DNA from: Bacteroidaceae bacterium
GTDB taxonomy: Bacteria; Bacteroidota; Bacteroidia; Bacteroidales; Bacteroidaceae
DNA: 50,987 bases
Assembly: GCA_017546505.1 (NCBI GenBank)
Contig: JAFYWV010000016.1
Coordinates: 1 to 50,987, forward strand
Reading direction: 5' to 3'
Position numbers and translations under genes: made by a program. A model generated the notes under the pieces. It saw only the letters and a program-made list of their open reading frames with translations, had not been told where the DNA came from and searched no databases. Shown piece after piece: positions 4,284 to 29,170 of this stretch. The number at the start of each line of letters is the position of its first letter. The stretch's first letter is position 1.

Positions 4284-5627
4284 TCAGAAATTGTATTTCA
4301 CCATTGCGCAGATGCGGTGGTTTGTTACAGGGCGGGGATTTTTCATTGTGTAGTTCTTCTCCTTCTCGCCATAGCCCACAGTGGTGGGGTTATACTCAAC
4401 ACCAATCTGCAGTGCATTGTGTGTGTAGAGGATGCTGGGGGCAACGCGCCACATATAGTCCATATTCTTCTCGCCGCGCATATAAATGTCGCCCACGATC
4501 TCTTTCTCGCAGCCCAGGTTCTTTGTATAGCCGGCAAAGCAACAGAACTGCAGATAGCCTTTCTTCAAAGGCTGTTTGTATGTAGCGTCAATCCAACCGC
4601 CGATGCTGTTGATTGTGCCATACTCCCACTCGCCGTTCTCTTTGATGGCTGTTACTCCGTAGCCGCTTATCATACTAAGGTGAGCGGCGTTCTGCGCGTA
4701 TGTCACACGGCCTTTGATGCCCCAGCGGTCGGCCTTGTACGATGCAAAGAGTGTGGGGGTGAAGCTTATTACAGGCGCTTCGTTGCACTTGTAGTTTTTT
4801 GTACTAGTGGTGCTTTTCTCAATGGGTACAAAAGTCGGTGCACCGTTGCCGTCAAGAATGGGGGCTCCTGTCTCATCGTGTGCAGGCACATAGTAAGTCT
4901 CTTTTTTCGTTTCTGTTACGGCATAGCTCTGGCGCGGTTTGATTGTGAGAATGTCAACGCCTACACCTGCCTGGAAACCGCCCTTCTTGTACATTGCCTG
5001 GAAATAGAGCTCGGGCACAACCGCATTGCGTGCATAGTTGAACGATGCACCGTCAGGGCCGTATGATGTGTACTGGAACTGATAGAGTGCTGTGGCTGTC
5101 AATGTGACGCCCTTGTTCACATAGTCGTATCGCAACTGTGGCGTGCGGCTGAAGGGTGTGAACGGTGCACCGGTCTCGAGCGAGAATACATCGGGCATCA
5201 TATCGCCCATCATCGGGTGCCACGCCTGTCCTACAAGCAGTTTGTTGTGCTTCCAGTCCATCTTGGCGTACGCCTGGCGTATGCGCAACACTGTGTTGCT
5301 TGTTCCAAAGCCTGCAAAGTCTGCCTCAATCTTTGCCGATGTCTTTGCACCCAGGAACTCAGGGCCTGTGATGTTTAGTCCCAGGCGTGTGGTTATGCTC
5401 AACAGCATCATATTCGGCTGTGCATAGATGTCGTTGCCTTCTGCATCGGGCTTCACATCTTTGGGCATATAATAGAACTGCTCACTGTTTGATGTAAGGC
5501 TCTCGCGTGTGTCGTAGCAAGCATAATTGCGCACAAAGCCGTAGAACTTGAAACTGAATTCCTCTTGCGCTGTCACGTTGCCGACAAATATCGACATCAG
5601 CGCTGCAATGAATAGTGTCTTTTTCAT
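4284..5627 (-). CDS. Outer-membrane beta-barrel porin (DcaP-like)
   Basis: 447 residues with a signal peptide (MKKTLFIAALMSIFVGNVTAQ). After it come alternating polar/hydrophobic strands throughout and a C-terminal phenylalanine (MVKYNF) typical of BAM-assembled barrels. The opening strand FSFKFYGFVRNYACYDTRE and the segment VLRIRQAYAKMDW resemble DcaP/porin-type barrels that let small anionic solutes through the outer membrane. It lies 17 nt downstream of the DASS transporter and upstream of the GH84 gene. A joint role with the transporter in taking up an organic acid is a reasonable inference, but the substrate is unknown. The family call rests on pattern recognition only. Confidence 0.65.
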   Translation of the reverse strand: MKKTLFIAALMSIFVGNVTAQEEFSFKFYGFVRNYACYDTRESLTSNSEQFYYMPKDVKPDAEGNDIYAQPNMMLLSITTRLGLNITGPEFLGAKTSAKIEADFAGFGTSNTVLRIRQAYAKMDWKHNKLLVGQAWHPMMGDMMPDVFSLETGAPFTPFSRTPQLRYDYVNKGVTLTATALYQFQYTSYGPDGASFNYARNAVVPELYFQAMYKKGGFQAGVGVDILTIKPRQSYAVTETKKETYYVPAHDETGAPILDGNGAPTFVPIEKSTTSTKNYKCNEAPVISFTPTLFASYKADRWGIKGRVTYAQNAAHLSMISGYGVTAIKENGEWEYGTINSIGGWIDATYKQPLKKGYLQFCCFAGYTKNLGCEKEIVGDIYMRGEKNMDYMWRVAPSILYTHNALQIGVEYNPTTVGYGEKEKNYTMKNPRPVTNHRICAMVKYNF

Positions 5628-16108: not shown

Positions 16109-19100
16109 TTATAACCTGATTTTAACGGCGTTTTTATCTACTATTAAAATATAAATGCCCTTTTCAAGTGTAATCTCCTCGCCTTTGTATTTGTCAATGT
16201 TTGCGATGAGTGTACCGTTTGTCGTGTAGACGGCAATTTGTTTGCCGTCGGCATTTGTCAGGGAGATGCCGTTTGCAGTTGTTTCTATTGCAATGTCGCT
16301 TGCTTTGATGTCATCAATTCCGGTATCATCAAACTCTTGAATATTCCTGAAGTTCTTCCAGACATCTGCTGTCTGATATATTGCAAGAGTGCCTTGTGGT
16401 ACATAAAGGGTTGGTGAAAAGTTTCTAAAATTATTATTGGGTGCTACTTCTGCAGGTTCTTTAGACATTACATAAATTTCTGTCAAATTCAAGCAAGCAT
16501 CAAAAGCATATTCGCCGATAGTTTTCACACCGGCAGGGATAACTATAGAGGTGATACCGCCAACTCCATTGAATGCACCGTTGCCTATTGATGTGGCATC
16601 TTCGGGGATGACTGCATCCTTCCAACCAAATACAACCTTTTTACTGTTGTGCTCCATCAGCACGTTGCTGCCTTGTGGGATGCTGTATACAGGGTTGTTC
16701 TCATCTATGGTCACTCTTTGCAAGTTGTAGTTGTGTGTGAACGCGTAGTCACCAAAGTTTGTCAGGCTTGCAGGGAGGTGTACTTCTCTCAAGCTTTGGC
16801 AATATTGGAAAGCTCTCTTGCCAATGCTTGTTACATCGCCTTTGAATGTGATACTTGCAATAGATATGCAGCCGTTGAATGCGTCGTCTCCAATTGTCTT
16901 GATGTTTTTGCCAAAGATTACTTCTGCTATGTCATAATCCTGGAGGAATACTCTCTCTGCAATATCAGTTATCTTGTAGCTCTTTCCGTCTATCACAACA
17001 GTGTCGTATATTTTGATTAAAGGACTCTTGCGGTAGCCGGTAATCTGCACAGTCTGTTCCTCTTCCGACAGGATAGTGTAAGAAAAGTCATTGTTGTTGT
17101 CAACGCTGAACTCTTCATCTGTAATGTTTGCAAACTTCTTCCAGTTCTCGTCTGCTTCATAAGCTGCTTTTGTACCGGCAGGGACGTGCAGTACTGCTGT
17201 TGAGTACAAATCAACATCAGAGCACTCGAATGTGCTTTCGTTGATTGTTGGTGGTGTAACAGCTTCTACATAAATGTGTTGCAGGCTTTCGCACTCGGAA
17301 AAAGCATCTGCCCCTATTTTGGAAACATTCTTTCCGATTACAACTTCCGACAGGTCGCTGCAACAGAAGAATGCAGATTCATTGATAGAGGTAACATTCT
17401 CAGGAATTGACACAAAAACAAAATAGCAGTTATAGAATGCATATCTTTCAATAGTTACAACACTTGTAGGGATTGTAATATTATATATATCGTTTCTTCC
17501 TGAAAAAGCACTTTCGCCAATAGCTGTCACATCGTTAGGGATTACTGTGTTTGAGCATCCCAGAATGAGCCTGTTTGTGGCGCTTTCAATAATTGCATTG
17601 CAGCCGTTGCGGCTATCATAATACTCGTTGTTCTCGTTTACCGATATTTCGCGGATTCTACATCCCGGCCAAACTGCTTCTCCGATATACTCGACGCTTT
17701 GCGGAATATAGATGGTTTTCAACGCGTAGCAATAGGCGAATGCGTCTGCCTCTATTGACTTCAATCCCTCTTTGAGCTCGATAGACCTGAGGTTATAGCA
17801 ACACTCAAAGGCTGACGAACCGATGCTCTCCAAACCTTCGCCAAGTGTCACCGTTTCAAGTTCTTCGCAGTTGAAGAAAGCGCTGTTTCCAATGCTTGTT
17901 ACAGCGTCCGGAATAGTTACGCTTGTAATATTGGTGTTGTCCCTGAATGCATTGTTACCAATCACATAGCTGTTGCCATTGTAGTTGGCGGGCAGTGTCA
18001 GTTCTGTGCTTTCTCCAGTATATCCTGTCAAGGTATTTATACCATTAATGACGGCAAATGTGAAACCGTCTATCTCGGTGGGGCCGTCGTTTTCTTCACC
18101 TGTCGGCTTGTTTGTAACCTTGTCGGCATAATGGGCAATGTAACCATAGTCGGTAGAGCCGGCTGTGAAAATCAAGTCGGAGAGGTTGTTGACTGTTTTC
18201 AGGTTGTAACATTTGCAGAATGCCAATTCGTCAATGGTAGTCAAACTCTCGGGGATAGTTATGCTTGTGAGGCCTTCACACTCAAAGAAAGCTGCATTGC
18301 CGATTGTTGTTACACCATTGCCAATTGTCAGGCTTGTAATTCCGGTGCATCTTGTGAATGCGTTCCCTCCAATGGTTTTTACGCTACCGGGTATGGTTAC
18401 ACTTGTGAGGTCTTCGTACTCATAGAATGCATAGTTTCCAATATAAGTTACACCCTCGGGGATAACAAGGTCTGTAATCTTCTCTCCGTTGAGATATAGA
18501 CCTTCTGCCACGTACAAAGGATTGGAGGTATAGCTGTCGTTGAAATCGATGTTGCACCACGCAGCGATGTCGCTGATGTGCACCTCCTTTAAATTATCGT
18601 TATAATAGAAAGCCCATTCAGATATTGTTTTCAATGTGCTGGGGATTGTGATGCTTGTGAGGTTATTGCAGTCCCAGAATGTGTTGTTAGCAATGTTTGT
18701 TATACCTTCGCTCAATACGATGTCTGTAAGGTTATCGCAATATCCGAATACATAGCCGCCCATACTTTTTACACTGCCTGGAATAGTTATGCTTGTAATG
18801 GCGTCGCAACTGGCAAATGCACTGCCTCCAATGTGTGTTATACCCTCGTTCAGCGTAATGTCTCTAAGGCTATAGCACGATGAAAAGGCGCTCTCACCTA
18901 TAGATGTCACTCCCTTGCCCAGTGTTATACTTTCAAGGTTTCTGCAATATGAAAAGGCACTCTCTCCTATGGCTCCACTACTGATTGTTGCAGTCATAAG
19001 GCTACTGCAACTATTAAAAGCATCCTTTCCAATGTATTTTACGCTACTTGGTATTATAACACCAATGAAGTCGATATCATCATATGTACCAGCGTTTTTA

Positions 19101-20299
19101 AATACAGCGTCGGCAATACCTATTGTACCCTCATTGATAACAAACATTCCGTTGAGTTTCGTGTTTTTTGGACCCAACAACCAATTGTCCTTGTAAATAA
19201 GTCCATCGTTCTGTTTCTTATACCATCCGGTACCCTCGAATGGATTTTTGTACACACCGGTAACGTCTTCGGGTATAGTGAATTTCTCAATTTCACTGCA
19301 ATTGTAGAATGCTTTCTCGCCGATAGAGTAGCCTTGTCCGTTAAACTTCTCGGGTAAGGATATCTCGGAAAGGAGGTTTCCCGTGTACAATACAAGGGTG
19401 TTTTTGCCATCTACGCTCTTGAACAGGTAATTACCGTCGAAGTGGTACAGTTCCTCCTCATCGGGTGTAATTATGACTATGGCATTTTTTGCAACATTGC
19501 CATAAACGTCTGAGCCCTCCCAGATGATAAGTTCCGAGTAGTTGTAAATGAGTTTCAACCTGTTGCAGTTGCGGAAGGCGTAGTTGCCGATGCTTGTGAT
19601 GCCACTGCCCAATGTTACTATTGCAAGGTTGCTACAGTTATTAAAGGCATATTCTTCTATAGTGGTTATGTTAGTCGGGATGGTTATTTTTGCAAGACTC
19701 GAACAACCGCTGAAAGCATTTGTTGGAATAGTGGTTATTCCGCTGCCTATTCTTACTTCTGCGAGTTTGCTACACCCGGAGAAAATTGCTTTGCCGATTT
19801 CTGTTACATTATCGGGGATGTCAATGCTGATAAGATTGTTGCAAGACTGAAATGCTCCCTCATTTATTGTTGTTACACTGGCCGGTATTTCGATGCTTTT
19901 TATACCCGAACCGCAGAATGTATATTCTTCAATGGTAGTTACACCGTTGGGAATAACAATGCTTGAGAGTATATCGCAACCGTTGAATGCGGATCTTCCG
20001 ATGGTTGTTATGTTGTTCGGGATAACAACACTTGTGAGTTCTTCGCAAGCTGCGAATGCACGCTCTCCAATGGCTGTGACGCGATAGATTGTTCCGTAGT
20101 AGTCAACGCTTTCTGGTATAACGACCTCTCCTTTGTACGAATTTGGATTTCCGCTATTTGTGACCTCTACCGTTTTTTCCTTGAAGTCGATGATGTTGTA
20201 ATAAATGCCATCGGCCTCGAAATTGTAAGCGTTTACAGTAATGCTCGACAGTAGCATAACTGCTGTAACAAGCATAAATTTAAAGTAAAAATTTCGCAT
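16109..20299 (-). CDS. Large BspA-like leucine-rich-repeat surface protein
   Basis: 1396 residues with a signal peptide (MRNFYFKFMLVTAVMLLSSITVNA). Dozens of LRR_5/TpLRR repeats follow with the pattern L.SI.IP..VT.IG..AF..C, in several blocks separated by beta-rich spacers such as DGLIYKDNWLLGPKNTKLNGMFV. It ends in a ~65-residue beta-sandwich-like tail (about 1330-1396, GISLTNADGKQIAVYTTNGTLIANI...GIYILIVDKNAVKIRL) of the kind that often serves as a secretion or anchoring signal in Bacteroidetes. BspA proteins bind fibronectin/fibrinogen or other bacteria; here adhesion is inferred. The gene is monocistronic and preceded by a ~290-nt structured leader with its own promoter. Confidence 0.93.
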   Translation of the reverse strand: MRNFYFKFMLVTAVMLLSSITVNAYNFEADGIYYNIIDFKEKTVEVTNSGNPNSYKGEVVIPESVDYYGTIYRVTAIGERAFAACEELTSVVIPNNITTIGRSAFNGCDILSSIVIPNGVTTIEEYTFCGSGIKSIEIPASVTTINEGAFQSCNNLISIDIPDNVTEIGKAIFSGCSKLAEVRIGSGITTIPTNAFSGCSSLAKITIPTNITTIEEYAFNNCSNLAIVTLGSGITSIGNYAFRNCNRLKLIYNYSELIIWEGSDVYGNVAKNAIVIITPDEEELYHFDGNYLFKSVDGKNTLVLYTGNLLSEISLPEKFNGQGYSIGEKAFYNCSEIEKFTIPEDVTGVYKNPFEGTGWYKKQNDGLIYKDNWLLGPKNTKLNGMFVINEGTIGIADAVFKNAGTYDDIDFIGVIIPSSVKYIGKDAFNSCSSLMTATISSGAIGESAFSYCRNLESITLGKGVTSIGESAFSSCYSLRDITLNEGITHIGGSAFASCDAITSITIPGSVKSMGGYVFGYCDNLTDIVLSEGITNIANNTFWDCNNLTSITIPSTLKTISEWAFYYNDNLKEVHISDIAAWCNIDFNDSYTSNPLYVAEGLYLNGEKITDLVIPEGVTYIGNYAFYEYEDLTSVTIPGSVKTIGGNAFTRCTGITSLTIGNGVTTIGNAAFFECEGLTSITIPESLTTIDELAFCKCYNLKTVNNLSDLIFTAGSTDYGYIAHYADKVTNKPTGEENDGPTEIDGFTFAVINGINTLTGYTGESTELTLPANYNGNSYVIGNNAFRDNTNITSVTIPDAVTSIGNSAFFNCEELETVTLGEGLESIGSSAFECCYNLRSIELKEGLKSIEADAFAYCYALKTIYIPQSVEYIGEAVWPGCRIREISVNENNEYYDSRNGCNAIIESATNRLILGCSNTVIPNDVTAIGESAFSGRNDIYNITIPTSVVTIERYAFYNCYFVFVSIPENVTSINESAFFCCSDLSEVVIGKNVSKIGADAFSECESLQHIYVEAVTPPTINESTFECSDVDLYSTAVLHVPAGTKAAYEADENWKKFANITDEEFSVDNNNDFSYTILSEEEQTVQITGYRKSPLIKIYDTVVIDGKSYKITDIAERVFLQDYDIAEVIFGKNIKTIGDDAFNGCISIASITFKGDVTSIGKRAFQYCQSLREVHLPASLTNFGDYAFTHNYNLQRVTIDENNPVYSIPQGSNVLMEHNSKKVVFGWKDAVIPEDATSIGNGAFNGVGGITSIVIPAGVKTIGEYAFDACLNLTEIYVMSKEPAEVAPNNNFRNFSPTLYVPQGTLAIYQTADVWKNFRNIQEFDDTGIDDIKASDIAIETTANGISLTNADGKQIAVYTTNGTLIANIDKYKGEEITLEKGIYILIVDKNAVKIRL

Positions 20300-20314
20300 A
20301 TCTATTTCTCTTTT

Positions 20315-20602
20315 GCCTTCCCAATTCCCCGATGGAAGCGGATAAAAAACAAGGTGTGGGAACTATATTTGCTTTATCCTAAAATCAGGCTTCTCGCATT
20401 GCCTACGGTATGGATAAAGCAATAGCCCACACCACAGGATATGCAAAAAGAAGCCAATGATGGCTGTACATATCAATGATGTGGTGCTATTGCGACCATC
20501 TTCATACCGTTTCAAATTTTGCGAGAATTTGATTTTAGAAGATAATTTCAATAACACCTTTTAATAATAAAATAACCCTTTTGCTACCGCTGCAGCCAAG
20601 AA
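20315..20602 (-). ncRNA. Structured leader RNA, copy 1 (pseudoknotted; novel family candidate)
   Basis: The transcript would run from about 20602 to the BspA-like start codon at 20299. Helices seen, as plus-strand coordinates: P1 20379-20387/20530-20538, P2 20391-20398/20520-20527, P3 20405-20412/20503-20510, P4 20353-20360/20426-20433, P5 20369-20379/20412-20422, P6 20387-20390/20401-20404, P7 20315-20321/20334-20339. P1-P3 cross P4-P5, so they form a pseudoknot, and the P2 strand sits in the loop of P6. The same layout with different base pairs occurs at 26257-26531. P7 closes a conserved loop ATCGGGGAATTG and ends about 15 nt before the ATG. An alternative helix (20351-20357 with 20554-20560) would disrupt P4. 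Confidence 0.8.
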
Positions 20603-20608
20603 TTATCG

Positions 20609-20640
20609 CAAATGTAATAAAGGTATTTTGTTTTATCAAG
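20609..20640 (-). promoter_or_regulatory. Promoter of leader RNA copy 1 / BspA-like gene
   Basis: The minus strand reads TACATTTG at 20616-20609, an exact TAnnTTTG match. CTTG at 20640-20637 lies 20 nt upstream, the expected spacing for Bacteroidales promoters. It places the transcript start at about 20602, just before the conserved leader. Confidence 0.75.
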
Positions 20641-20754
20641 TTATTTGCAGAAAAAATAACTGTTATTGTGGTTGTCTGTAATGTAGATTGTAAGTAAAAG
20701 CAGTTGAGTGGCGACAAATTTTGGACAGTGACTATAAAACGCAATTCGCGATTT

Positions 20755-21351
20755 CTATTCTATATATAACCAATTGGTCTGTTTGTCTCTTGTGAAGTAT
20801 CCCCAAATGTATAGTGGACGTGTAAACAAACCGTTTTTGATATATCCGTAACCAAATTCTCCCATATCAAGGTAGGTTGCATTGGTACAGCGTTTGCCAC
20901 ATTCCAGAGCAAAATCGGACAAAGTCATCGGGTAATTGGATTGCAATATGAATGCGCCGTTCTTGTCTTTACACAAAGCCCTGCGTATGGATTTCCGCTT
21001 ATCGTGGAACTTCATTGCTTTTGAATTGTTAACCAATGTCAGTTGTTGAAAACCGTTGTCGCCCATCCATTGCCTACTGATAAAGAACATATCCCCTTTT
21101 AAGGAGACTCTCATTCTCATTGTTTTGTTTGCTTCATAGCTCTTTCCATTTATCATGTAAGCCCCAAGGATTTGTCCTTGCTCATCGGTGAAAGCGGCAG
21201 GGATGCACATTCTTACATTTTGAGGTCTCTTGTTCGACCATTTTAGTTCCCCCTTTGGCAAGTCAAATCGGGTTACCTTTTTCTCAAAATGTAGATAGAC
21301 TATTCCCAAGCATAAAGAGCCTAGACAAAGGAATAATAGAAAACGTTTCAT
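20755..21351 (-). CDS. Exported protein, possibly phosphodiester-glycosidase-like (NAGPA/DUF2233)
   Basis: 198 residues with an N-terminal hydrophobic segment (about 3-21), then a soluble domain. The order of elements NVRMCIPAAFTDEQG..., RRALCKDKNGAFIL and LSDFALECGKRCTNATYLDMGEFGYGY resembles the NAGPA/DUF2233 fold. That fold ends in an A.NLDGGGS-type motif near the active site; here it would be TYLDMGEFG, so the normal GGGS residues are changed. I am not sure of this call and any catalytic activity is doubtful. It is the last gene of the AT-rich TerB-bounded run; its start overlaps the preceding 86-residue frame by 68 bp. Confidence 0.5.
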   Translation of the reverse strand: MKRFLLFLCLGSLCLGIVYLHFEKKVTRFDLPKGELKWSNKRPQNVRMCIPAAFTDEQGQILGAYMINGKSYEANKTMRMRVSLKGDMFFISRQWMGDNGFQQLTLVNNSKAMKFHDKRKSIRRALCKDKNGAFILQSNYPMTLSDFALECGKRCTNATYLDMGEFGYGYIKNGLFTRPLYIWGYFTRDKQTNWLYIE

Positions 21352-21544
21352 TTAATTTTTGTGCTATGTGTGTTTTTTTGATAATCCTTTTTATCCACCA
21401 ATTAGCAAACAGAGCCAACAGGTAAAGCACCACAAAAATAATAAGATTTACAATATAGTACTCAGTCCAACCTTTTTTATAATATGGCATATTTGTTGGA
21501 ATGTCAAGATGTGTGCCTAAAGCAAAAAGGTCGTTTTTGGCCAT
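21284..21544 (-). CDS. Small membrane protein of the TerB-bounded run
   Basis: 86 residues. A central hydrophobic segment (about 29-50, YYIVNLIIFVVLYLLALFANWW) is followed by a basic stretch KRIIKK, giving one predicted transmembrane helix with the basic end in the cytoplasm. I do not recognise a family. The ATG directly follows the stop codon of the TPR lipoprotein gene with no spacer, which implies coupled translation. The reading frame runs 68 bp into the next gene. A run of seven A residues on the coding strand (plus 21373-21379) precedes that overlap; one base more or less there would end the protein at or just before the next start codon. Confidence 0.55.
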   Translation of the reverse strand: MAKNDLFALGTHLDIPTNMPYYKKGWTEYYIVNLIIFVVLYLLALFANWWIKRIIKKTHIAQKLNETFSIIPLSRLFMLGNSLSTF

Positions 21545-22168
21545 CTAATATTCATTCTCTGCTGAATGGTAAAGCATAAGATAATTTCCTAGTTCTATAT
21601 TTGTGGAGTCTAACAGTAATGCCCTGTTTGCGTAATAGCCCATTTCTTCATAAAAACCGTTTTCGTAAAACAAACGCACCGCATTCAAATAATGGCTTAC
21701 TGCCAATTCGTTTTTGCTTTGTTTCTCGAAAATCTCGGCAAGGCAAATGTAAGGACGTGCATAATAAGGATTGCATTTGAGGGCTTCGTTGTACGCATTG
21801 ATGGCCTCTACAATATCTCCTTTAAGTAAAAACAAACTTCCAATTTCTTGGTATAGTAATTGTGGCTGTTCTGATGATGAAATGCTGTTTTTCAGCAACT
21901 GAATGGCATAGTCATATTCACCTTTAAAACCGTATGCTGTAGCATAAAGTAATGCCATATTGTTCACATCGACTCCTAATGATTTCAGTGAATCCAAACT
22001 AGTAAGCATTGCATCTCCATCGTATCTTTCTTGATGAAAAAGCAATGTGTCAATCATTTCTTGAATGAGTACATCTTTTTCTGTACTTGTTTTTTCTTTG
22101 TTACACGATATAAAAAGCGTACACGCAAGTAACGCGATTATTAGTGATTTAAGTGTGTTTGTTCTCAT
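21545..22168 (-). CDS. TPR-repeat lipoprotein
   Basis: 207 residues. The N-terminus MRTNTLKSLIIALLACTLFISC has a lipobox-like LFIS-C, so the mature protein is probably a lipoprotein starting at Cys22. The rest is helical with tetratricopeptide-like repeats, clearest in GDIVEAINAYNEALKCNPYYARPYICLAEIFEK and the following NELAVSHYLNAVRLF. TPR domains bind partner proteins, so it may scaffold other products of this run at the cell envelope. It lies upstream of, and abuts, the 86-residue membrane protein gene. Confidence 0.75.
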   Translation of the reverse strand: MRTNTLKSLIIALLACTLFISCNKEKTSTEKDVLIQEMIDTLLFHQERYDGDAMLTSLDSLKSLGVDVNNMALLYATAYGFKGEYDYAIQLLKNSISSSEQPQLLYQEIGSLFLLKGDIVEAINAYNEALKCNPYYARPYICLAEIFEKQSKNELAVSHYLNAVRLFYENGFYEEMGYYANRALLLDSTNIELGNYLMLYHSAENEY

Positions 22169-22188
22169 ATTTGTTTATTTTAAGCAAT

Positions 22189-22293
22189 CTATTGGTGTTG
22201 AATAGAATATATTAAAAAAAAACGTGGTATAAGAAATCCTACCAAAATAATTGATAGGATTCCTATAATGGTTCTTTTAATCCACTTTTTCAT
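22189..22293 (-). CDS. Tiny predicted membrane protein (34 residues)
   Basis: ATG at 22293 opens a 34-codon frame: MKKWIKRTIIGILSIILVGF then LIPRFFLIYSIQHQ. A basic start is followed by one hydrophobic helix. It fills the otherwise empty 223-nt gap between the TPR lipoprotein gene and the 204-residue gene, on the same strand. No family is recognised; translation is plausible but unproven. Confidence 0.4.
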   Translation of the reverse strand: MKKWIKRTIIGILSIILVGFLIPRFFLIYSIQHQ

Positions 22294-22391
22294 AGTGTTA
22301 CATTTTTGCAAATGTAATCTTTTTTATTATTTGTTCATTTGTTTACTTCCCTCAATGCGTTTCTTGAATCTGTCATTATAGAAATATCTCA

Positions 22392-23006
22392 TTACAATTT
22401 TATAAATGTGCGTACGACATTCAAAATAGCTTCATGTGCAAGTTCTCCTTCTGCTATAATTTGCTGTTTGTTGAACATGGGATAGTTTGAAGCAACTATA
22501 GGAACTTGTTTTTTTAAGTTGTTCAATAGAGCGTCATTGTTGTCTCTATCCCAAGCCTTGTACACATCACTTATTAGTGCGAAATCAAAAAATTGCTGAT
22601 TCTTGAGTTTACCTCTATATCCAGCAAATGGTGCATTGCAAGCAAGGTTGAAAACTGTATTAAGTTTATCCATAGCCTTGAAGACGATGAATGCTCGAAA
22701 CATATTTCCCAATGTTTGAACATTCGCAGGGAATGATTTGTCGTTTGCAACTCTACTGCTATAGTAATAGCATAGCATAATAGGAACATCTCCACCAATC
22801 TTGTGTGCAAACATTTCAAAGAATGCACTCATTGCTATAGCATCGGTTGGAACTTCCGATGGAGGGCATTTCCATTCATTTTGGGACAATTCTTCTACAA
22901 GCTGATTTAAAATTCTTTTACTCTCCACAGCTGGATCTTTCCCTACAACTGCATATGAAATATGAACTTGAGAGTATTCTCTTAAAAGTTGTGATATTTT
23001 GCTCAT
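22392..23006 (-). CDS. Uncharacterised cytoplasmic protein of the TerB-bounded run
   Basis: 204 residues, mainly helical, with no signal peptide or transmembrane helix. I start at ATG 23006 (MSKISQLLREYSQ); an upstream in-frame TTG at 23015 is less likely. The segments ESKRILNQLVEELSQNEW and QIIAEGELAHEAILNVVRTFIKL look amphipathic. No motif is recognised. It is 26 nt downstream of the TerB-like gene 23033-23386. The higher AT content and the lack of recognisable relatives fit an accessory island. Confidence 0.6.
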   Translation of the reverse strand: MSKISQLLREYSQVHISYAVVGKDPAVESKRILNQLVEELSQNEWKCPPSEVPTDAIAMSAFFEMFAHKIGGDVPIMLCYYYSSRVANDKSFPANVQTLGNMFRAFIVFKAMDKLNTVFNLACNAPFAGYRGKLKNQQFFDFALISDVYKAWDRDNNDALLNNLKKQVPIVASNYPMFNKQQIIAEGELAHEAILNVVRTFIKL

Positions 23007-23032
23007 AGTGTACAATTTTATTTATATGTCCT

Positions 23033-23386
23033 TTAATCTACATCAGGCAACTCTAATTTTTGCTTCATATAATAGAAGAACCGTTCTTCCATAGACGTAA
23101 TTTTACCGTCAGCCAGAATGACTTGAGCTACGAACTTTCCAAGATATGCTTTTTTGGCAATATCCATATTACGAAGGCATCTTGTCATTTCTTGCTCTGT
23201 TAAACGACGAGAAGCCTCAATGTCTGCTGCTGTAATTCCAAGAATTCTATTAAATTTGCTGATGAGTGCAAGCTCACGAGGGTCGCGTTCTCCATCAATT
23301 ATCATTGCCGCACAAAGAATTTGGTATAATGATTGTCTCTCCAAAGATGTATAAGGGGAGTTCTGGTCATAATAGTTTGAATTCAT
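23033..23386 (-). CDS. TerB-like protein (second copy)
   Basis: 117 residues, all-helical, with the TerB fold signatures: two acidic metal-binding-like turns, CAAMIIDGERDPREL (about 25-39) and VAQVILADGKITSMEE (about 87-102), each a D-G-x-x box followed by Glu. TerB proteins take part in tellurite and phage resistance and in membrane-linked stress complexes, usually with TerC or TerD partners, none of which is visible here. Only the domain, not a tellurite function, is supported. It lies mid-run, with the other TerB-like gene at the promoter-proximal end. Confidence 0.8.
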   Translation of the reverse strand: MNSNYYDQNSPYTSLERQSLYQILCAAMIIDGERDPRELALISKFNRILGITAADIEASRRLTEQEMTRCLRNMDIAKKAYLGKFVAQVILADGKITSMEERFFYYMKQKLELPDVD

Positions 23387-23403
23387 CGTATTTTTAATTT
23401 TTA

Positions 23404-24132
23404 TTATTCACCGTTATTATCAATGTATTGTATATTTTCATATGTAATGTGTAAACTAGGTACAAAAGGTCCTATATAACTGCATTTAAGTGAATAATTC
23501 AGATATATCCAAGGGCAATGCTTCTTTGTGTTGTTTTTGGATAACTCTTGAAGCATTCTAGATACATCTTCTTGAGACGGTTGTGTTGTGGTTGATATTT
23601 TATTCTTTAGCAAACTCAGAGCGATTGAATATTCAACACGGGGTGTTTCACGCTCACTTGACGTTATGAAACGTATTTGGGATTCCGAAAAATCTGTATA
23701 GGGAATGTCAAGATGCATATCAATCATATAATAATCCGTTTCGGCAGTTGCGTCAAACGAGAATGAATTTACTCCTAAATAATTACGGAGATTTAAAATA
23801 TTATTGAATAACACACACTCCACCCCTGTCTCAATTTTCATATATAGTAGATCTTGCAGGGTCTTATATAAAGTGTAGCTATCAGCTTGAGCCGCGTATC
23901 TCCATGAATTCAAAATCTTACAAATGATATCTCTTTTAACTGCATACGGAAGAGTTTTTAGAGTATAAACATAATTAGAGTAATCAAGTCCTGTCTGACT
24001 CGGTAACGAGTATCTGCCAAAAGCGTTGAACAACTTTTCTCTATCCCATTTCATCATTGTTAAAGGTTTTGAAAGATGATTTAGGAACTGCAATATTGCA
24101 GCCTTTTGCTGAAAATTAAGATTTATATCCAT
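23404..24132 (-). CDS. Uncharacterised protein of the TerB-bounded run
   Basis: 242 residues, soluble, with no signal peptide. The N-terminal half is helical (NFQQKAAILQFLNHLSKPL). The C-terminal half contains beta-like stretches (FDATAETDYYMIDMHLDIPY and HCPWIYLNYSLKCSYIGPF). I recognise no domain or catalytic motif. It is 17 nt upstream of the mid-run TerB-like gene on the same strand, so it is probably co-translated with it. Confidence 0.6.
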   Translation of the reverse strand: MDINLNFQQKAAILQFLNHLSKPLTMMKWDREKLFNAFGRYSLPSQTGLDYSNYVYTLKTLPYAVKRDIICKILNSWRYAAQADSYTLYKTLQDLLYMKIETGVECVLFNNILNLRNYLGVNSFSFDATAETDYYMIDMHLDIPYTDFSESQIRFITSSERETPRVEYSIALSLLKNKISTTTQPSQEDVSRMLQELSKNNTKKHCPWIYLNYSLKCSYIGPFVPSLHITYENIQYIDNNGE

Positions 24133-24155
24133 TTTGATAATGTGTTTATTATTTG

Positions 24156-24563
24156 TTATTTAATAAGTTCATCATATACAATGTCTACTCCTCTGTCGTA
24201 CATATGCAACTCACATTTTACAACATTTCTGTTCTTGAGATGAAGAGTAATGCCATAATTTTTATTGTCATACGCTACAACTCCCATAGCTTTAAGAGTA
24301 ACTCCACGCAGCAATATTTTATCGCCTGTATCAGCTACCATTTCCATAAGTTTGGGTTGCATTTGGGGTGTTGGCGTAGGAGTATCCATATTCCACATCG
24401 TTACAAGGAAACCTTCTTTAGGGGTTACATCTAAACCGTTAAACATCTCCTTGAAAACTTTATTTTCAATTTTAATTGTTCGGTTGCAGTATTGTGAGCC
24501 CATCACCGGTACACCATTCTGATAGCGTTGATGGTGTGTTGATTTCAAAACTAAGTCTTGCAT
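24156..24563 (-). CDS. Uncharacterised small protein of the TerB-bounded run
   Basis: 135 residues, beta-rich and soluble, with no signal peptide. A PTPTPQMQP linker lies near residue 65, and the C-terminus is a run of strands (ILLRGVTLKAMGVVAYDNKN, then GITLHLKNRNVVKCELHMY). The strand pattern could be a small beta-barrel, but no family is recognised. Spacing to neighbours is 23 nt downstream and 18 nt upstream, typical of one operon. Confidence 0.55.
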   Translation of the reverse strand: MQDLVLKSTHHQRYQNGVPVMGSQYCNRTIKIENKVFKEMFNGLDVTPKEGFLVTMWNMDTPTPTPQMQPKLMEMVADTGDKILLRGVTLKAMGVVAYDNKNYGITLHLKNRNVVKCELHMYDRGVDIVYDELIK

Positions 24564-24581
24564 ATAATTAACATCGTTATA

Positions 24582-25055
24582 TTAAAAACCAAAAAATTCT
24601 TTTTCCATTCTTCCTTGTGGAGTGTCGAATTTTAAATACGATTCTCTATCAATAAAATGAATGAATATAGCATTCATCTCATCGAACCATTGCATTGTGA
24701 AAATTGGCAACCCAAATAAACATTTATTATGAAAGCCTTCATTAACCAATTTTACGGAATAGGCGTCAATTGTAGAAAATGTAATTGTTTTAACAGATTT
24801 TGTTCCATTCTTCTCTATAAGAATTGATATTTTTTGCTCGTCATTCTTATATATTATCTCATCGAAATAGGGTATTCTATTGCTTTCTGAACACGAATAT
24901 TTTCTCCCTTTATTTTTGAAAAATAGCTCAATTTGTTCTAAAAACAATTTGTTGGCTTCTTCCTGAGAGTTGATATTTTTATATATTTTAGCAGCGACAT
25001 CAATAGAATAACTAAATGCACTATTTACATCAAAATCAAACACTTCATCATTCAT
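24582..25055 (-). CDS. Uncharacterised protein of the TerB-bounded run
   Basis: 157 residues from ATG 25055 (MNDEVFDFDVNSAF); a longer frame from TTG 25085 adds ten residues. Soluble, mixed alpha/beta. KISILIEKNGTKSVKTITFS and LPIFTMQWFDEMNAIFIHFI look like sheet edges. No known motif. The sequence is strikingly AT-rich compared with the flanking housekeeping genes. Confidence 0.55.
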   Translation of the reverse strand: MNDEVFDFDVNSAFSYSIDVAAKIYKNINSQEEANKLFLEQIELFFKNKGRKYSCSESNRIPYFDEIIYKNDEQKISILIEKNGTKSVKTITFSTIDAYSVKLVNEGFHNKCLFGLPIFTMQWFDEMNAIFIHFIDRESYLKFDTPQGRMEKEFFGF

Positions 25056-25105
25056 AATATTCGTAACATAATTAATATCGTTCAATTCTTTAGGAACATT
25101 GCATT

Positions 25106-25462
25106 CTATGCAATGTTATTAACCAATTCGTAAAGTCCATCTCCCGACAGATAATAACTTCCCCATTCATATTCTTTGATAATTGTGGCTATAGATATTG
25201 CAATCATATAAGCTTTCTCATCTGATGGGTTCTGAATGTAAAGTGCTTTACCTATAGCAATAAGTTTTTCTATTACAGTATCATTCTTCTTAGAAAGTGC
25301 AATATCATACAGCTCTTTTTGAGATAATTTGTCAGTGATTTGAGTCTGGATAATTACTTTTATATTTCTCAATTCATTAAACTGAGAAGAAAAACCTGTA
25401 CTAGTAAGTGCATTACCCATTATGGATTTACCAATATGTGCTATTCTATCCTTGTCTATCAT
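25106..25462 (-). CDS. Uncharacterised helical protein of the TerB-bounded run
   Basis: 118 residues from ATG 25462 (MIDKDRIAHIG); an upstream ATG at 25510 would add 16 residues and overlap the preceding gene. Helical, with no signal peptide. The stretch IGKALYIQNPSDEKAYMIAISIATII resembles a short helical repeat, perhaps TerB-like or TPR-like, but not clearly enough to name. It sits 37 nt downstream of the 25500-25859 gene. Confidence 0.55.
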   Translation of the reverse strand: MIDKDRIAHIGKSIMGNALTSTGFSSQFNELRNIKVIIQTQITDKLSQKELYDIALSKKNDTVIEKLIAIGKALYIQNPSDEKAYMIAISIATIIKEYEWGSYYLSGDGLYELVNNIA

Positions 25463-25499
25463 TTCCTTATTATTAAAGGTTAATATTGTATGTAATAAT

Positions 25500-25859
25500 C
25501 TAATAATCAAGTGTTATATTCAAAAAAGTCTCAATCCCTGAATCAAATTCAATATTAGAGATAGGCATTCCAAATGCCATCATAGATGCCCGCATTGCAT
25601 TATAATGTCCCTGTAGATTCGCTCCGTATAAAGCAATAGAACCAATCTTGCCACTTCCGCTTACATCCGGATAAAACAAGAATAGATTTATTGGCTGTCC
25701 GTTGCGAGTGATTTCCAAAGCGTGGCATCCTGCTCTCATATCATATAAATAAGACTTGATTTGATAGGTGGAGTAGGCCGGATGATTTCTGAATCCATTA
25801 ACAATATTTTGAATGCGCATTAAGCTGTCTTGGTTTAGATGACTAGCAAATCCAAACAT
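25500..25859 (-). CDS. Small, possibly exported protein of the TerB-bounded run
   Basis: 119 residues from ATG 25859 (MFGFASHLNQDSLMRIQ), 10 nt after the stop codon of the first TerB-like gene. A longer frame from 25901 would add LKLCLIFNSIIMFGFASH, which could be a weak signal peptide but overlaps the terB-like gene by 32 bp. Contains LFLFYPDVSGSGKIGSIALY. No family is recognised. The choice of start decides whether the product is cytoplasmic or exported, and the sequence does not settle it. Confidence 0.55.
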   Translation of the reverse strand: MFGFASHLNQDSLMRIQNIVNGFRNHPAYSTYQIKSYLYDMRAGCHALEITRNGQPINLFLFYPDVSGSGKIGSIALYGANLQGHYNAMRASMMAFGMPISNIEFDSGIETFLNITLDY

Positions 25860-25869
25860 AATAATTGAA

Positions 25870-26241
25870 TTAAAGATTAGACATAATTTTAATGGCCTCA
25901 AAAATGTTCATTGTTGGCAAATCGCACATTGCAGAGATTAAAGACCACAATTTCATTTCGGAGTCATCTATATTCCCGTCTGCGCAAATTAAAGTTCCCA
26001 AGAAGGCTGTTACATATTTCTTTTCTTCGGCAGTCATATTAGACACAATTTGACAGCATTCACTATATGGCATTTTTGCTCCAATATCAGCAATTACTCT
26101 TCCTTTGTTCTGGTCAACGCCAAATCGAGTCATTTCAAGGACAATCATCTGTGTCTCTTCATTAGTTACTTTACCATCGGCATTGGCAATTGCGTGTGCT
26201 AATCTTAGAATTGCTGCGAGTTCTTGATTTGTGAATATCAT
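25870..26241 (-). CDS. TerB-like protein, first gene of the run
   Basis: 123 residues, all-helical TerB fold. Two matching acidic boxes are visible: HAIANADGKVTNEE (about 16-29) and GTLICADGNIDDSEMK (about 82-97), separated by ~65 residues as in the family. It is the promoter-proximal gene of a minus-strand run of about twelve genes ending at 20755. A ~280-nt structured leader RNA ends about 15 nt before its ATG. Role unknown; TerB domains commonly appear in envelope-stress or phage-defence modules. Confidence 0.85.
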   Translation of the reverse strand: MIFTNQELAAILRLAHAIANADGKVTNEETQMIVLEMTRFGVDQNKGRVIADIGAKMPYSECCQIVSNMTAEEKKYVTAFLGTLICADGNIDDSEMKLWSLISAMCDLPTMNIFEAIKIMSNL

Positions 26242-26256
26242 AGTATTAAATGTTAT

Positions 26257-26531
26257 GCCCTCACAATTCCCAGATGAAAGCGGATAATAAAATAAGGCGT
26301 GGGAACTTTAACTTATTATTCTATTGAGGCTCTGGACTGCCTGACACTGATAATAAGCAAAGCCCACGCCTAATGATATAATATGCCCTGTTAAGGGTAT
26401 ATAGATACCATAGACGTGGACGTTTCTTGCTCATTACCCCAGTGTCGAAATTGTCCAGATTTCAATAGAGGATAATTTTGCTAAACGCCCTAAAACTAAT
26501 ATGTCTGCTCCTGCAAAAACTTATTACAAGA
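26257..26531 (-). ncRNA. Structured leader RNA, copy 2 (pseudoknotted; novel family candidate)
   Basis: Same architecture as copy 1. As plus-strand coordinates: P1 26320-26327/26462-26469, P2 26331-26337/26453-26459, P3 26343-26349/26440-26446, P4 26296-26303/26363-26370, P5 26312-26319/26350-26357, P6 26327-26330/26339-26342, P7 26257-26262/26276-26281. Almost every helix has a different sequence from copy 1 yet still pairs, and the conserved bases (GGGAATT loop, AGGC/GCCT, GTTCCCAC) are the same. P7 contains two G.U pairs that exist only if the minus strand is transcribed. A 7-bp alternative helix, 26294-26300 with 26485-26491, competes with P4. It ends 15 nt before the terB-like ATG. Confidence 0.8.
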
Positions 26532-26537
26532 ACAACG

Positions 26538-26571
26538 CAAATGTAATGCAAACGAGCAAAATAACATCAAA
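26538..26571 (-). promoter_or_regulatory. Promoter of leader RNA copy 2 / TerB operon
   Basis: The minus strand reads TTTG (26571-26568), a 22-nt gap, then TACATTTG (26545-26538), matching the Bacteroidales consensus and placing the start at about 26531. A second CTTG-20-TACATTTG pair lies upstream at 26650-26619. The rest of 26572-26755 shows no gene. Confidence 0.75.
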
Positions 26572-26618
26572 CTTGATTGAATATTTTACTGCGAGTGCAG
26601 TGCACATTCACACTTGTG

Positions 26619-26650
26619 CAAATGTAGTTAAAAGGTATAAACAATGCAAG
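26619..26650 (-). promoter_or_regulatory. Second upstream promoter candidate
   Basis: CTTG (26650-26647), 20 nt, then TACATTTG (26626-26619) on the minus strand. This is the same -33 and -7 sequence and spacing as the promoter of leader copy 1. A transcript from here would carry ~80 extra nt before the leader. Confidence 0.5.
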
Positions 26651-26755
26651 AAACACTTTGCAAATTATAGTCTCTGAAAATTGTCCTTTACATTAACGGT
26701 GTTGTAATTGGCGTTGATGAGAAGGCTAGAAAACTATTCTAAGTAGATGTTTATA

Positions 26756-27145
26756 TTACAACCCGAAGATTTTGTCAAACTCCGCTTTTGTGTAGTTTTC
26801 GACTACCAGAGTGTGGCCCCTATAGCTGAATTCAAGGTTGATACCGGTAGCGGTTTTGGTTGGAGTGATTGTTACACCCTCGTAGACAAAGCGCTTTCCA
26901 ACTGATTTTTCAATTCGTGGAGCTATTGACTTGTAGCTGCTCACACAGAGTCTCTTTACCTTCTGCGGCATAAGGTTGTAGATTGCAACCAATGTTTTGG
27001 TGTCAAAGTCAAAGTTCTCTTCTCCTCCCGAAATTCTTGCATTGACAGAGGACTTTTCTGTAGATGTTGTTACATTTGTAGCACGCGCAGCTACGCTGAA
27101 CATTGAAACGAGCGAAAGAATCGCAATAAAAAAGATTTTCTTCAT
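26756..27145 (-). CDS. Small secreted protein
   Basis: 129 residues with a signal peptide (MKKIFFIAILSLVSMFSVAARA) and a ~105-residue mature domain. The mature part has a helix (FDTKTLVAIYNLMPQKVKRL) and a beta-hairpin-rich end (VTITPTKTATGINLEFSYRG then HTLVVENYT). No family is recognised. It lies 78 nt downstream of the HELTH membrane protein gene on the same strand and could be part of that sigma-factor operon. It is separated from the TerB run by the 514-nt region holding leader copy 2. Confidence 0.6.
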   Translation of the reverse strand: MKKIFFIAILSLVSMFSVAARATNVTTSTEKSSVNARISGGEENFDFDTKTLVAIYNLMPQKVKRLCVSSYKSIAPRIEKSVGKRFVYEGVTITPTKTATGINLEFSYRGHTLVVENYTKAEFDKIFGL

Positions 27146-27223
27146 AGTGTTGAAATTTTAGAGTGTTATTATAATTGTTTTCACTCTATAATGTCGCAAT
27201 GAAGAAAAGGTAACCGGCAAAAT

Positions 27224-27958
27224 TTAAAAATATTTTATTATTTCGCTCGCCCAACCGACCGGGTCAGTGATAATATGCCAGGGATATTCCCAAAACACCC
27301 TACCTAATGCCTTCAGAACACCGCCTTTTGGGGTGGCAAGAATGAGGGAAGCCACAGTAAGGTGAGTGAATGTCAGGAACGTAACAGACCTGGCAATGCC
27401 GCAGTTCTCAATGTCCGGCTGTGTGAAGCGGGTCTGTTTAATGAATGCGTGAATGTGGAATGCATAGGTAAATGCAATGAGCGCATCAAAGAATATCATA
27501 TAGTTGTTGTCGCCTGCAAACCGGAAAGGGAATATCATAAATGTATATATAGGTATACAATATGGCGATAGGGTGATAGGGACATAACCAATTCCATATT
27601 TACCGACCTTGTAGTTTACATAGCACTCTCTGCCTCTGACCACAAACTCATTGATTTTCTTAAAGAACAGCAGAGCTACAAGCGTGTGGGTCAATTCGTG
27701 GGTAAACTTCATGAACCAGTTCTGGTTATGGCTGATTCTGAATATTGAACGTGTGGTTGCCAGGAGTATATATGTTGCAAATCCGGCAATTAACCCCACG
27801 TAATTACCGGCGTGCTTCCAAGACCACCCAATTCTTACCCACATGTCAATGGTATTCTTCGCAAGCGAAGTGATGAGTACGGCCAAGAAAAGGAGTGCCA
27901 ATAAACCGAACAAAGCGGTTGAGGAAAAATAGATAAGTCTGTTAACTCTATTCTTCAT
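27224..27958 (-). CDS. Polytopic membrane protein with HELTH zinc motif (M50-like)
   Basis: 244 residues with about five to six hydrophobic segments. The HExxH zinc-binding motif HELTH (residues 87-91) lies next to a hydrophobic stretch (THTLVALLFF), as in intramembrane site-2-type proteases and related M50-like membrane proteins. A candidate third ligand region is less clear, since the classic LDG motif is absent. Its start overlaps the stop codon of the sigma-factor gene by 4 bp (ATGA), so the two are translationally coupled. Proteolytic control of the sigma factor, or of a partner, is a fair inference. It may equally be a non-catalytic membrane protein. Confidence 0.6.
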   Translation of the reverse strand: MKNRVNRLIYFSSTALFGLLALLFLAVLITSLAKNTIDMWVRIGWSWKHAGNYVGLIAGFATYILLATTRSIFRISHNQNWFMKFTHELTHTLVALLFFKKINEFVVRGRECYVNYKVGKYGIGYVPITLSPYCIPIYTFMIFPFRFAGDNNYMIFFDALIAFTYAFHIHAFIKQTRFTQPDIENCGIARSVTFLTFTHLTVASLILATPKGGVLKALGRVFWEYPWHIITDPVGWASEIIKYF

Positions 27959-28674
27959 TGCTCTTCGTCATTATTGTCAACATTCAATGCTGCAATGCAG
28001 TGACCGCTGTCGGTATGGATTCTCTCCTCCTCAATCAGCTCTCTCAGTGCGGCTCTCTCAATGGCGTTACGAATAGCCTCCTCTGCGAACTCATCATCTT
28101 TAATTATTCTGGCTGCAATTTCCTTAATTCTATTCATACACTTGCTCTTTTTGCTTTTGACCGAATCGGCATTACGCATACCCAAAATGCTTGCAATCTC
28201 ATCCATTGGCTTGTGATCCCAATAGAAATGTTTAAGGAGGGTGCTGCATTCCGATGGAATACGGCTGAACAACTTGTCCAGAAAATCGTTTTGCATCTGC
28301 TGTTTCTCATCAACGCCCATCTCATTCCCTTCCTCTTCACTATTATGTAGAAAAGGAGAGAAGGTAACCGCGTCGTCCAAACTCTGCGTTCTCTTTTTCC
28401 TTATGAGGTTACATGCCGTCAGTTTGCCTATCTGAACAAGATAACTGAACAGGGCACCATCGTGGGAACAGACTATACCGTCACTTTTCACTTTCTGCAT
28501 AAGTACAATCAAAGACTCTTGAAAGATGTCATCAATGTCTTCGCCGGAAATACTATCAACAGAGAATGTCTGCCCCAAAATAGACGCAACCCCCGGTTTC
28601 ATATTCCTGCAGATGTGCTTCCAGGCGCGTTCGTCATTTTGCATTATTCCGAATATAAGTTGTGAGTCTGTCAT
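27955..28674 (-). CDS. ECF-type RNA polymerase sigma factor
   Basis: 239 residues. Region 2 (about 18-92) includes DDIFQESLIVLMQKV and the core-binding/-10 helix FSYLVQIGKLTACNLIRKKR. A linker with LHNSEEEGNEMG follows, then region 4 (about 130-190) with helix-turn-helix SRIPSECSTLLKHFYWDHKP and MDEIASILGM...VKSKKSKCMNRI. A ~50-residue acidic C-terminal tail (DDEFAEEAIRNAIERAALREL and onward) follows region 4, longer than in most ECF factors. It is coupled to the HELTH membrane-protein gene. No classical anti-sigma factor is adjacent, which makes the membrane protein and the tail candidates for control. Confidence 0.87.
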   Translation of the reverse strand: MTDSQLIFGIMQNDERAWKHICRNMKPGVASILGQTFSVDSISGEDIDDIFQESLIVLMQKVKSDGIVCSHDGALFSYLVQIGKLTACNLIRKKRTQSLDDAVTFSPFLHNSEEEGNEMGVDEKQQMQNDFLDKLFSRIPSECSTLLKHFYWDHKPMDEIASILGMRNADSVKSKKSKCMNRIKEIAARIIKDDEFAEEAIRNAIERAALRELIEEERIHTDSGHCIAALNVDNNDEEQ

Positions 28675-28881
28675 ATCTTGTTTTATCTTTTCTACAAAAA
28701 TAATAAAAATCTTTTAAAGATGCTATTGGTGCGAACTGATTAAACGAAATCGATAACCGCAGGTGAAAGCAGAGCTTAATGGCGAAGTTTCGACAATACT
28801 GACAGCCGTTGGTCACAGGCAGTGTGGAGCAGTCACGCCCTGCGGGATGCGATAAGGCAGTGTTGTCAAAACCCTACAAAC

Positions 28882-28910
28882 AAAAAAGAGAACCGCGTTA
28901 GCGATTCTCT
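28882..28910 (-). terminator. Intrinsic terminator of the tRNA gene
   Basis: On the minus strand a 10-bp stem (arms 28901-28910 and 28887-28896, one G.U pair) with loop TAAC is followed by a T6 run, directly after the tRNA 3' end. The rest of 28675-28881 holds no gene I can support. Confidence 0.88.
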
Positions 28911-28913
28911 TCG

Positions 28914-28987
28914 TGGGCCATCTAGGACTTGAACCTAGGACCTCCAGATTATGAGTCTGTTGCTCTAACCGACTGAGCTAAAAGCCC
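28914..28987 (-). tRNA. tRNA with CAU anticodon (Met, elongator type)
   Basis: 74 nt on the minus strand beginning GGGCTTTTAGCTCAGTCGG. The D-loop, anticodon stem-loop with ACTCATAATCT (anticodon CAT) and T-arm GGTTCAAGTCC are all present. Acceptor pairing is GGGC/GCCC plus weaker pairs. CCA is not encoded, as usual in Bacteroidetes. The sequence could also be a tRNA-Ile whose CAU is modified to lysidine; elongator Met is favoured but not certain. A terminator follows directly. Confidence 0.9.
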
Positions 28988-29170
28988 GTGTATCCCTTTT
29001 TGAAATACTTTGCAAAGGTAGAGCAAAAACTTTTAGATTGCAAATTTTTTTGTATTAAAAATTGTTATACTTCTCAATATGTAGCTTTGCTGCATATTAC
29101 CGGCATATATTTTGTCGGTTATCAGTGCTGCAAAATCCCTGCGTGGTATTGTGCTACAGGCGTTTTGGGG

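Follow-up and report, generated by a model that had tools for sequence, protein, structure and literature searches.

The 50,987-nt contig JAFYWV010000016.1 of a Bacteroidaceae bacterium (assembly GCA_017546505.1), the whole of which is referred to here as the window, carries on its minus strand two copies, A and B, of a large structured leader RNA that, judged from its sequence, probably represents a gene switch of a new and common type. Leader A precedes a gene for a leucine-rich repeat (LRR) protein and leader B precedes an operon-like run of short genes. An earlier note on this DNA had described seven helices, P1 to P7, in each leader, and both copies contain them as described: P1, P2 and P3 correspond to H5, H4 and H3 below, P4 and P5 to c.d and H6, P6 to the AGGC/GCCT hairpin with P2 inside its loop, and P7 to the 3′ hairpin. 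The upstream promoters it reported are also present (TACATTTG at 20616–20609 and 26545–26538), and both leaders stop just before an ATG (20299 and 26241), 15 nt past their reported ends. Overlooked in that first reading were a 5′ hairpin (P0), helices a.b and H2, hairpin Hk, hairpin b.c with its distal stem H8, a pseudoknot (PK) between strand d and the loop of the 3′ hairpin, and a U-rich tract. Leaders A and B are 60% identical across 265 aligned positions; helices H5, H4, H3 and H6 have different sequences in the two and keep their pairing in both. The features are listed below, with scores from R1, a covariance model that covers the 3′ half of the RNA and not its 5′ half.

20315–20602 (−): leader A, whole structured RNA; R1 score of 105.7 bits for the 3′ half
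20609–20616 (−): leader A promoter element TACATTTG, read from the sequence
20549–20558 (−): leader A strand a, pairing with b (20483–20492) or, via its 5′ end, with d
20541–20546 (−): leader A helix H2, 5′ strand; partner 20495–20500
20530–20540 (−): leader A helix H5, 5′ strand; partner 20377–20387
20512–20532 (−): leader A hairpin Hk
20520–20527 (−): leader A kissing helix H4, 5′ strand, the loop region of Hk
20503–20510 (−): leader A helix H3, 5′ strand; partner 20405–20412
20419–20493 (−): leader A hairpin b.c with distal stem H8
20426–20433 (−): leader A strand c of c.d; partner d at 20353–20360
20412–20422 (−): leader A helix H6, 5′ strand; partner 20369–20379
20387–20404 (−): leader A hairpin P6; its loop region 20391–20398 is the 3′ strand of H4
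20358–20364 (−): leader A PK, 5′ strand AGTTCCC; partner GGGAATT at 20323–20329, in the loop of the 3′ hairpin
20343–20352 (−): leader A U-rich tract, immediately 3′ of strand d
20315–20339 (−): leader A 3′ hairpin, 15 nt before the ATG
16109–20299 (−): gene after leader A, encoding a 1396-aa BspA-type LRR_5 protein
26257–26531 (−): leader B, whole structured RNA; R1 score of 109.5 bits for the 3′ half
26538–26545 (−): leader B promoter element TACATTTG
26483–26490 (−): leader B strand a; partner b at 26418–26425
26462–26469 (−): leader B helix H5, 5′ strand; partner 26320–26327
26453–26459 (−): leader B kissing helix H4, 5′ strand; partner 26331–26337
26439–26446 (−): leader B helix H3, 5′ strand; partner 26343–26350
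26363–26371 (−): leader B strand c of c.d; partner d at 26295–26303
26350–26358 (−): leader B helix H6, 5′ strand; partner 26311–26319
26301–26307 (−): leader B PK, 5′ strand; partner 26265–26271
26257–26281 (−): leader B 3′ hairpin, 15 nt before the ATG
20755–26241 (−): operon-like run after leader B, 11 co-directional short genes (86–242 aa), each of 28–40% GC

Read along the strand, the segments form two arms, a.b–H2–Hk and c.d–H6–P6. Kissing of the two apical loops makes H4 (for example CUGGAC/GUCCAG, CUCGCA/UGCGAG, AUCGCC/GGCGAU, CUGGUAA/UUACCAG and CGUGAGAA/UUCUCACG), and the internal loops pair crosswise through H3 and H5. On the 65-row alignment A6, helices H2, H5, H4, H3, H6 and P6 occupy abutting columns with overlaps of one column only, and Hk overlaps the neighbouring segments by a few bases. 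Because they abut almost without overlap, the arm segments could coexist as stacked four-way crossovers, which is how we read the pairing pattern. At the base of the arms, the four strands a, b, c and d pair either as a.b plus c.d or as b.c. As a.b and c.d overlap b.c, these helices cannot all be at full length at once. Strand d can alternatively form PK, by pairing with the loop of the hairpin nearest upstream of the AUG.

A covariance search, as the earlier note had proposed, found further homologues across the genus, family, order and class. An exact pattern of the core, drawn from the 3′ part, matched in 12 of 61 related genomes (the reversed pattern in 0), and a similar pattern matched 35 stretches among named genomes, 34 labelled Bacteroidales or taxa that we placed there and one labelled Clostridia; by their titles, 24 of the 35 come from ruminant cecum, colon or rectum samples. 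R1 was built from 17 of the 21 loci that remained of the first 24 after removal of two duplicates and one poorly aligned locus (L008). Of 44 genus genomes, it detected the RNA in 40 at an E-value of 0.01 and in 36 at 1e-4; at the latter threshold, it matched in 152 of 399 genomes of the family, 64 of 393 of the order and 8 of 395 of a phylum sample, all eight within the same class, Bacteroidia. A second model, R2, made from 18 hand-picked sequences of distant members, matched in 60 of 395 class genomes. R2 gave six matches, three of them weak, in the genome from which the window comes, and weak matches near the threshold are uncertain because the model calibration is rough. R1 also gave weak opposite-strand matches on the leaders themselves (26296–26411 (+) in the window and 964–1075 (−) in locus L161); as the fold is nearly palindromic, weak matches need screening. 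Sixty-two genus matches of at least 44.6 bits were examined further. The copies examined number 82, of which the 71-copy tests exclude 11 (two duplicates or near-duplicates and nine of the lowest scores), and A6 leaves out six more.

Covariation was tested by shuffling partners among sequences of the same type (three types defined by strand a; 71 copies; 1,000 shuffles). With types pooled, 14 of the 15 pairings tested were supported. For a.b, b.c, c.d, H2, H5, H4, H3, H8, H6, P6, PK, the 3′ hairpin and P0, no shuffle was as good as the observed pairing, and the same held for hairpin Hk (0/1000; z 7.3). Pooled z values were 19.4 for H3, 18.5 for H5, 7.1 for b.c, 6.6 for c.d, 4.5 for a.b and 4.0 for PK, and in this test b.c scores as the longer helix. 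All seven helices of the earlier note thus beat every shuffle, and the covariation that it had seen in two sequences persists at 65–71. The mutually exclusive pairings of the base covary and are both conserved, as expected of an attenuator, with a.b, c.d and b.c each supported in the pooled test.

A plain MAFFT alignment (65 copies) gives counts in line with the pooled result. One set of pairings (a.b, H2, H8, c.d, H6, P6 and the 3′ hairpin) was paired in 84.8% of cells against 79.3% after shuffling, the other (H5, H4, H3, b.c, H8, the 3′ hairpin and PK) in 81.9% against 74.7%, and the interleaved core in 80.5% against 71.2%; sliding the partners lowered the pairing of all three to 36–58%. Within the pseudoknotted core (65 rows), 35 of 55 pairs had changed on both sides, compared with a shuffled mean of 27.7 (0/500 as good). 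Plain shuffles of this kind leave relatedness in, and the within-type test removes it only partly. Strands c and d are paired in 99.6% of cells and PK in 96.3%. Where c.d drops to wobble (L113 and L119), b.c is kept through paired changes, and in distant members paired changes preserve PK (GUACCC/GGGUAU, GUUUCC/GGAAAC, AACCC/GGGUU and GGUUCC/GGAACC). For six R1 matches outside the order, a helix-split test compared pairing of each copy's own 5′ and 3′ halves with shuffles; it was devised after a cruder first test had separated own from swapped halves poorly. H3 and H4 were supported (17 and 25 of 5,000 shuffles as good, respectively), and H5 in these six was not significant (390 of 5,000). Outside the order, b.c looks like a short closed hairpin, as read from the sequences.

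The flanks of the RNA favour a place in messages. Of the 82 copies, 63 had at least 60 bits and enough upstream sequence for a promoter test; 62 of these have the element TAnnTT[TC]G within the 140 nt where it was expected, and an equally long control stretch lying further upstream contains it in 9 of the same 63. The middle half of the match positions lie within 12 nt of each other. Downstream, the chosen start codon, taken from the longest open reading frame (ORF) with a start no more than about 120 nt away (150 nt in the case of 20 copies), lies 6–22 nt past the RNA end in 73 of 82 copies. At L161 and L162, the chosen start is at −2 nt and a second in-frame ATG lies 13 nt past the RNA. Outside the order, the chosen ATG is 13–18 nt past the RNA in four of six homologues; the fifth (L194) has an ATG at 15 nt that the longest-ORF rule skipped, and for the sixth (L198) the rule picked nothing but a 4-codon ORF 88 nt away. 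Immediately after strand d, the T fraction in 65 leaders runs 0.83, 0.92, 0.46, 0.91, 0.94, 0.94, 0.86, 0.77, 0.83 and 0.65, and T-runs of at least six follow d in 65% of them, against 0% of windows elsewhere in the leaders. As in an attenuator, the U-tract comes directly after a GC-rich stem, c.d. The earlier note had proposed a conserved pseudoknotted fold with a cis-regulatory function: the fold is supported, the position in cis, in the 5′ untranslated region (UTR), is borne out, and the regulation itself is what we infer.

The leader matches no family in Rfam, in line with the earlier note, which could not name one. Rfam 15 at gathering thresholds gave no leader match in the window or in 20 loci (139,681 bases) drawn from the genus, family and order, and at a relaxed E-value nothing credible, ribozymes included, for the leaders scanned. 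A literature search covering titles and the openings of abstracts found no such RNA named. Bacteroidales-1 (RF01693), Bacteroides-1 (RF01694) and Bacteroid-trp (RF01692) are structured RNA candidates that likewise come from Bacteroidetes, according to the part of PMC2864571 consulted, but none of them matched in the window or the 20 loci. The portions of PMC8040213 covered describe candidate RNAs from human microbiomes, thousands of predictions of which some are in Bacteroidetes; the candidates named there differ from the leader in size and gene context, and a fragment of the leader may sit in the supplementary lists of that paper. Structured leader RNAs are a known kind of element; neither Rfam nor the literature searched showed this family, this architecture or the absence of a theme shared by its genes.

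These data allow us to propose a role for the RNA as an expression switch; many unrelated genes, most of which are accessory or encode surface proteins, carry it in their 5′ UTR. That it controls the gene behind it in cis, through termination or through translation start, seems to us quite likely. A specific switch between c.d and b.c/PK is the mechanism that we lean towards, with reservations. Its decision point would be strand d, which pairs either with c, giving a GC stem next to the U-tract, or with the hairpin loop beside the AUG, and a signal (ligand, protein or folding kinetics) would decide whether c.d forms. Once formed, c.d would make a terminator of the GC-rich stem and U-tract, would block PK beside the AUG, or both. 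If b.c formed instead, this competitor would hold c off d, d would be free, PK would form and the message would be made and translated. A ligand or protein would most naturally bind at the kissing arms. The U-tract would be accounted for by termination, and the narrow AUG spacing by control of translation start. We favour termination in Bacteroidales, perhaps on top of an older translation-start control, because AUG spacing is kept in most of the homologues examined outside the order and the U-tract is weaker there.

Several observations weigh against this switch. In nested folds, computed without pseudoknots, the b.c rod has the lowest energy in 62 of 65 leaders and lies on average 12 kcal/mol below a.b plus c.d, so c.d needs kinetics, pseudoknots or a ligand to win. 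The U-tract of the homologues outside the order is weaker or less pure, as read from the sequences. The longest-ORF rule can err, so some of the nine spacing exceptions may be wrong starts. The a.d helix is paired in 96.7% of cells and, on most measures, does better than plain shuffles, yet has no within-type support (z −1.3; 71 copies); it was for that reason rejected as an independently conserved helix and might at most close the structure. When type II is taken by itself (15 copies), a.b, H2, H8, H6 and P6 are unsupported (184–921 of 1,000 shuffles as good) and H4 is weakly supported (66 of 1,000). The H6 and H8 segments do vary in this type (10–13 distinct among 15), and the lack of support there is therefore real. 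Last, the 75 first downstream genes share no common pathway, which is unusual for a metabolite riboswitch, and form no coherent set that points to a ligand.

The abutting columns of H2, H5, H4, H3, H6 and P6 are also what would be expected if these helices coexist in a static interleaved fold, a ladder of four-way crossovers closed by the kissing loop, acting as a translation-start element. The 3′ hairpin and PK would then hold the 30S subunit at the AUG, and the overlap of a, b, c and d would reflect movement of the junction rather than a switch. These bacteria make little use of Shine–Dalgarno pairing. The narrow AUG spacing, seen also in four of the six homologues outside the order, and the place of PK among the best-paired elements fit such a fold, but it leaves the U-tract after d in Bacteroidales unexplained and the full a.b, c.d and b.c helices are incompatible together; we regard it as unlikely. 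A bolder reading, which we consider distinctly unlikely, is a natural multi-crossover RNA, in which internal-loop and apical kissing pairs zip two hairpins into one unit across stacked four-way junctions, with a branch-migrating base, and which serves throughout the class Bacteroidia as a general start module independent of the gene. If true, it would load ribosomes or polymerase on foreign, AT-rich genes and would be a bacterial counterpart of a structured ribosome-entry element where Shine–Dalgarno pairing is little used.

The presence of one leader before many unrelated genes, including runs of accessory genes, would also suit recognition by a regulatory protein or antiterminator, such as a NusG paralogue, in which case the RNA would serve as a scaffold and would not itself sense a ligand. 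This is very unlikely in our view, as no common linked regulator gene was found: DUF3871, the one family tested, occurs in 6 of 44 genus genomes against 40 of 44 for the RNA. It was accordingly rejected as a partner protein and is taken to be a neighbour in some islands rather than a general partner. Some copies lie between a tyrosine recombinase gene and AT-rich cargo, in the manner of rAID arrays as the part of PMC12247911 consulted describes them, which would suit a DNA-level recombination element (attC/attI-like single-strand hairpins) of recombinase cargo islands and not an RNA. The promoter match upstream, the AUG at a narrow distance downstream and the mostly single, non-arrayed copies make this scarcely credible, and no recombinase was found among the 30 window ORFs scanned. 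A cassette-array or attC reading was likewise rejected, as the copies are mostly single and do not recur between successive cassettes. Size and multiple pseudoknots might suggest a ribozyme, self-cleaving or otherwise, or an independent non-coding RNA whose position ahead of genes is incidental. Its narrow spacing to the start codons of unrelated genes favours an mRNA leader instead and no Rfam ribozyme matched the leaders scanned, so we give this idea next to no weight.

The leader RNA resembles three known systems in part. Attenuators of the trp type have four strands that pair as 1:2 plus 3:4 or as 2:3, with a U-tract after strand 4. The leader RNA likewise has four alternative strands and a U-tract after the last, and adds kissing loops, internal-loop pairing, an AUG-side pseudoknot and many unrelated genes. 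Large multi-gene riboswitch classes, such as the cyclic di-GMP riboswitches, place one leader fold before many different, often surface, genes of a genome, as does the leader RNA, which is larger, has no Rfam match and heads a gene set that holds no ligand clue. Two arms joined by apical loop–loop pairing are known from the purine riboswitch type; here the arms pair through their internal loops as well, and a mobile four-strand base closes them. A leader RNA roughly 290 nt long, present in most of the genus genomes sampled and in about one-sixth of the class sample, and standing outside Rfam, would rank among the commoner unexplained regulatory RNAs of gut bacteria, and its fold is open to direct probing in cultured species. 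Since genes for surface proteins and operons of possible immunity genes lie behind it, identification of its signal would reveal how cell-surface and acquired genes are controlled in these bacteria.

Among the proteins encoded first after the leaders, 21 of 75 match LRR_5 (BspA-type LRR), and LRR proteins after leaders have a similar start in common. Leucine-rich-repeat-like families aside, the other families have at most three members each (first 25 of 31 families). No PADLOC defence family matched among the 75 genes at an E-value of 1e-5. The first genes are mostly AT-rich (59 of 76 below 41% GC) and often short (50 of 76 below 340 aa, 45 of those 50 below 41% GC). The operon after leader B averages 34% GC, with 11 of 11 genes below 41%, whereas the window outside 16109–28990 has 49%, and the operon looks acquired. 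Its genes are mostly without a Pfam match, apart from two TerB-like genes and one TPR gene, and a tRNA gene (28914–28987) lies about 2.4 kb upstream.

In three genomes (G704, G711 and G302), copies stand at the front of the cargo in islands that contain Phage_integrase and DUF3871 genes, some of them RadC genes as well, the assignment of genes to islands being partly read from protein starts; in a fourth (G671, locus L188), the copy lies among ordinary-looking genes. On contigs that hold both, DUF3871 precedes the copy by about 1.1 kb in the same orientation in G023 and G014, and in G025 the two are about 3 kb apart on opposite strands. At L183, L185, L186, L187 and L190, DUF3871-like genes, several with a tyrosine recombinase and RadC, are followed by the leader and then by AT-rich cargo; the cargo of L185 is a run of co-oriented short genes with a weak Imm71 match, below the cut-off. 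A tyrosine recombinase, co-oriented short genes and conserved intergenic motifs characterize the rAID islands in the portion of PMC12247911 consulted. Several leader copies likewise head AT-rich co-oriented short genes beside a tyrosine recombinase, and L183 and L190 look to have the recombinase upstream of co-oriented genes below 41% GC; unlike the rAID elements described there, most leader copies are single and many head other genes, such as those for LRR proteins. A lipoprotein whose start is nearly constant (like MKTFRFIGMALLAIVMCVNFTSCS) and whose remainder varies is repeatedly encoded by the first or last gene after leaders (L095, L108, L113, L119, L183, L185, L188, L190 and L209).

Copies are mostly solitary. 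Among 77 sources searched, same-strand pairs were found in the window (two copies) and at L058 (two copies) only; L103 has a weak opposite-strand match 5.3 kb from its copy, and each of ten 20-kb regions held one strong copy. Spread by viruses was rejected: the pattern matched two viral contigs, but R1 finds no copy there, and a phage record matched 22% of leader B without an R1 hit. A Phocaeicola massiliensis plasmid record does carry a copy (R1, 45.4 bits). At L171, the leader copy has no ORF at the usual distance, and a match to the Rfam small RNA BTnc060 (6466–6680 (−)) lies about 180 nt upstream of it on the same strand. The closest same-strand pair seen is that of L058, with matches about 0.65 kb apart (4694–4813 and 5454–5524 (+)). 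L161 and L162 (contig C1 of G704, near 626284 and 2972775) represent a leader and gene that occur twice in one contig, about 2.3 Mb apart and identical across the printed stretch and in gene length.

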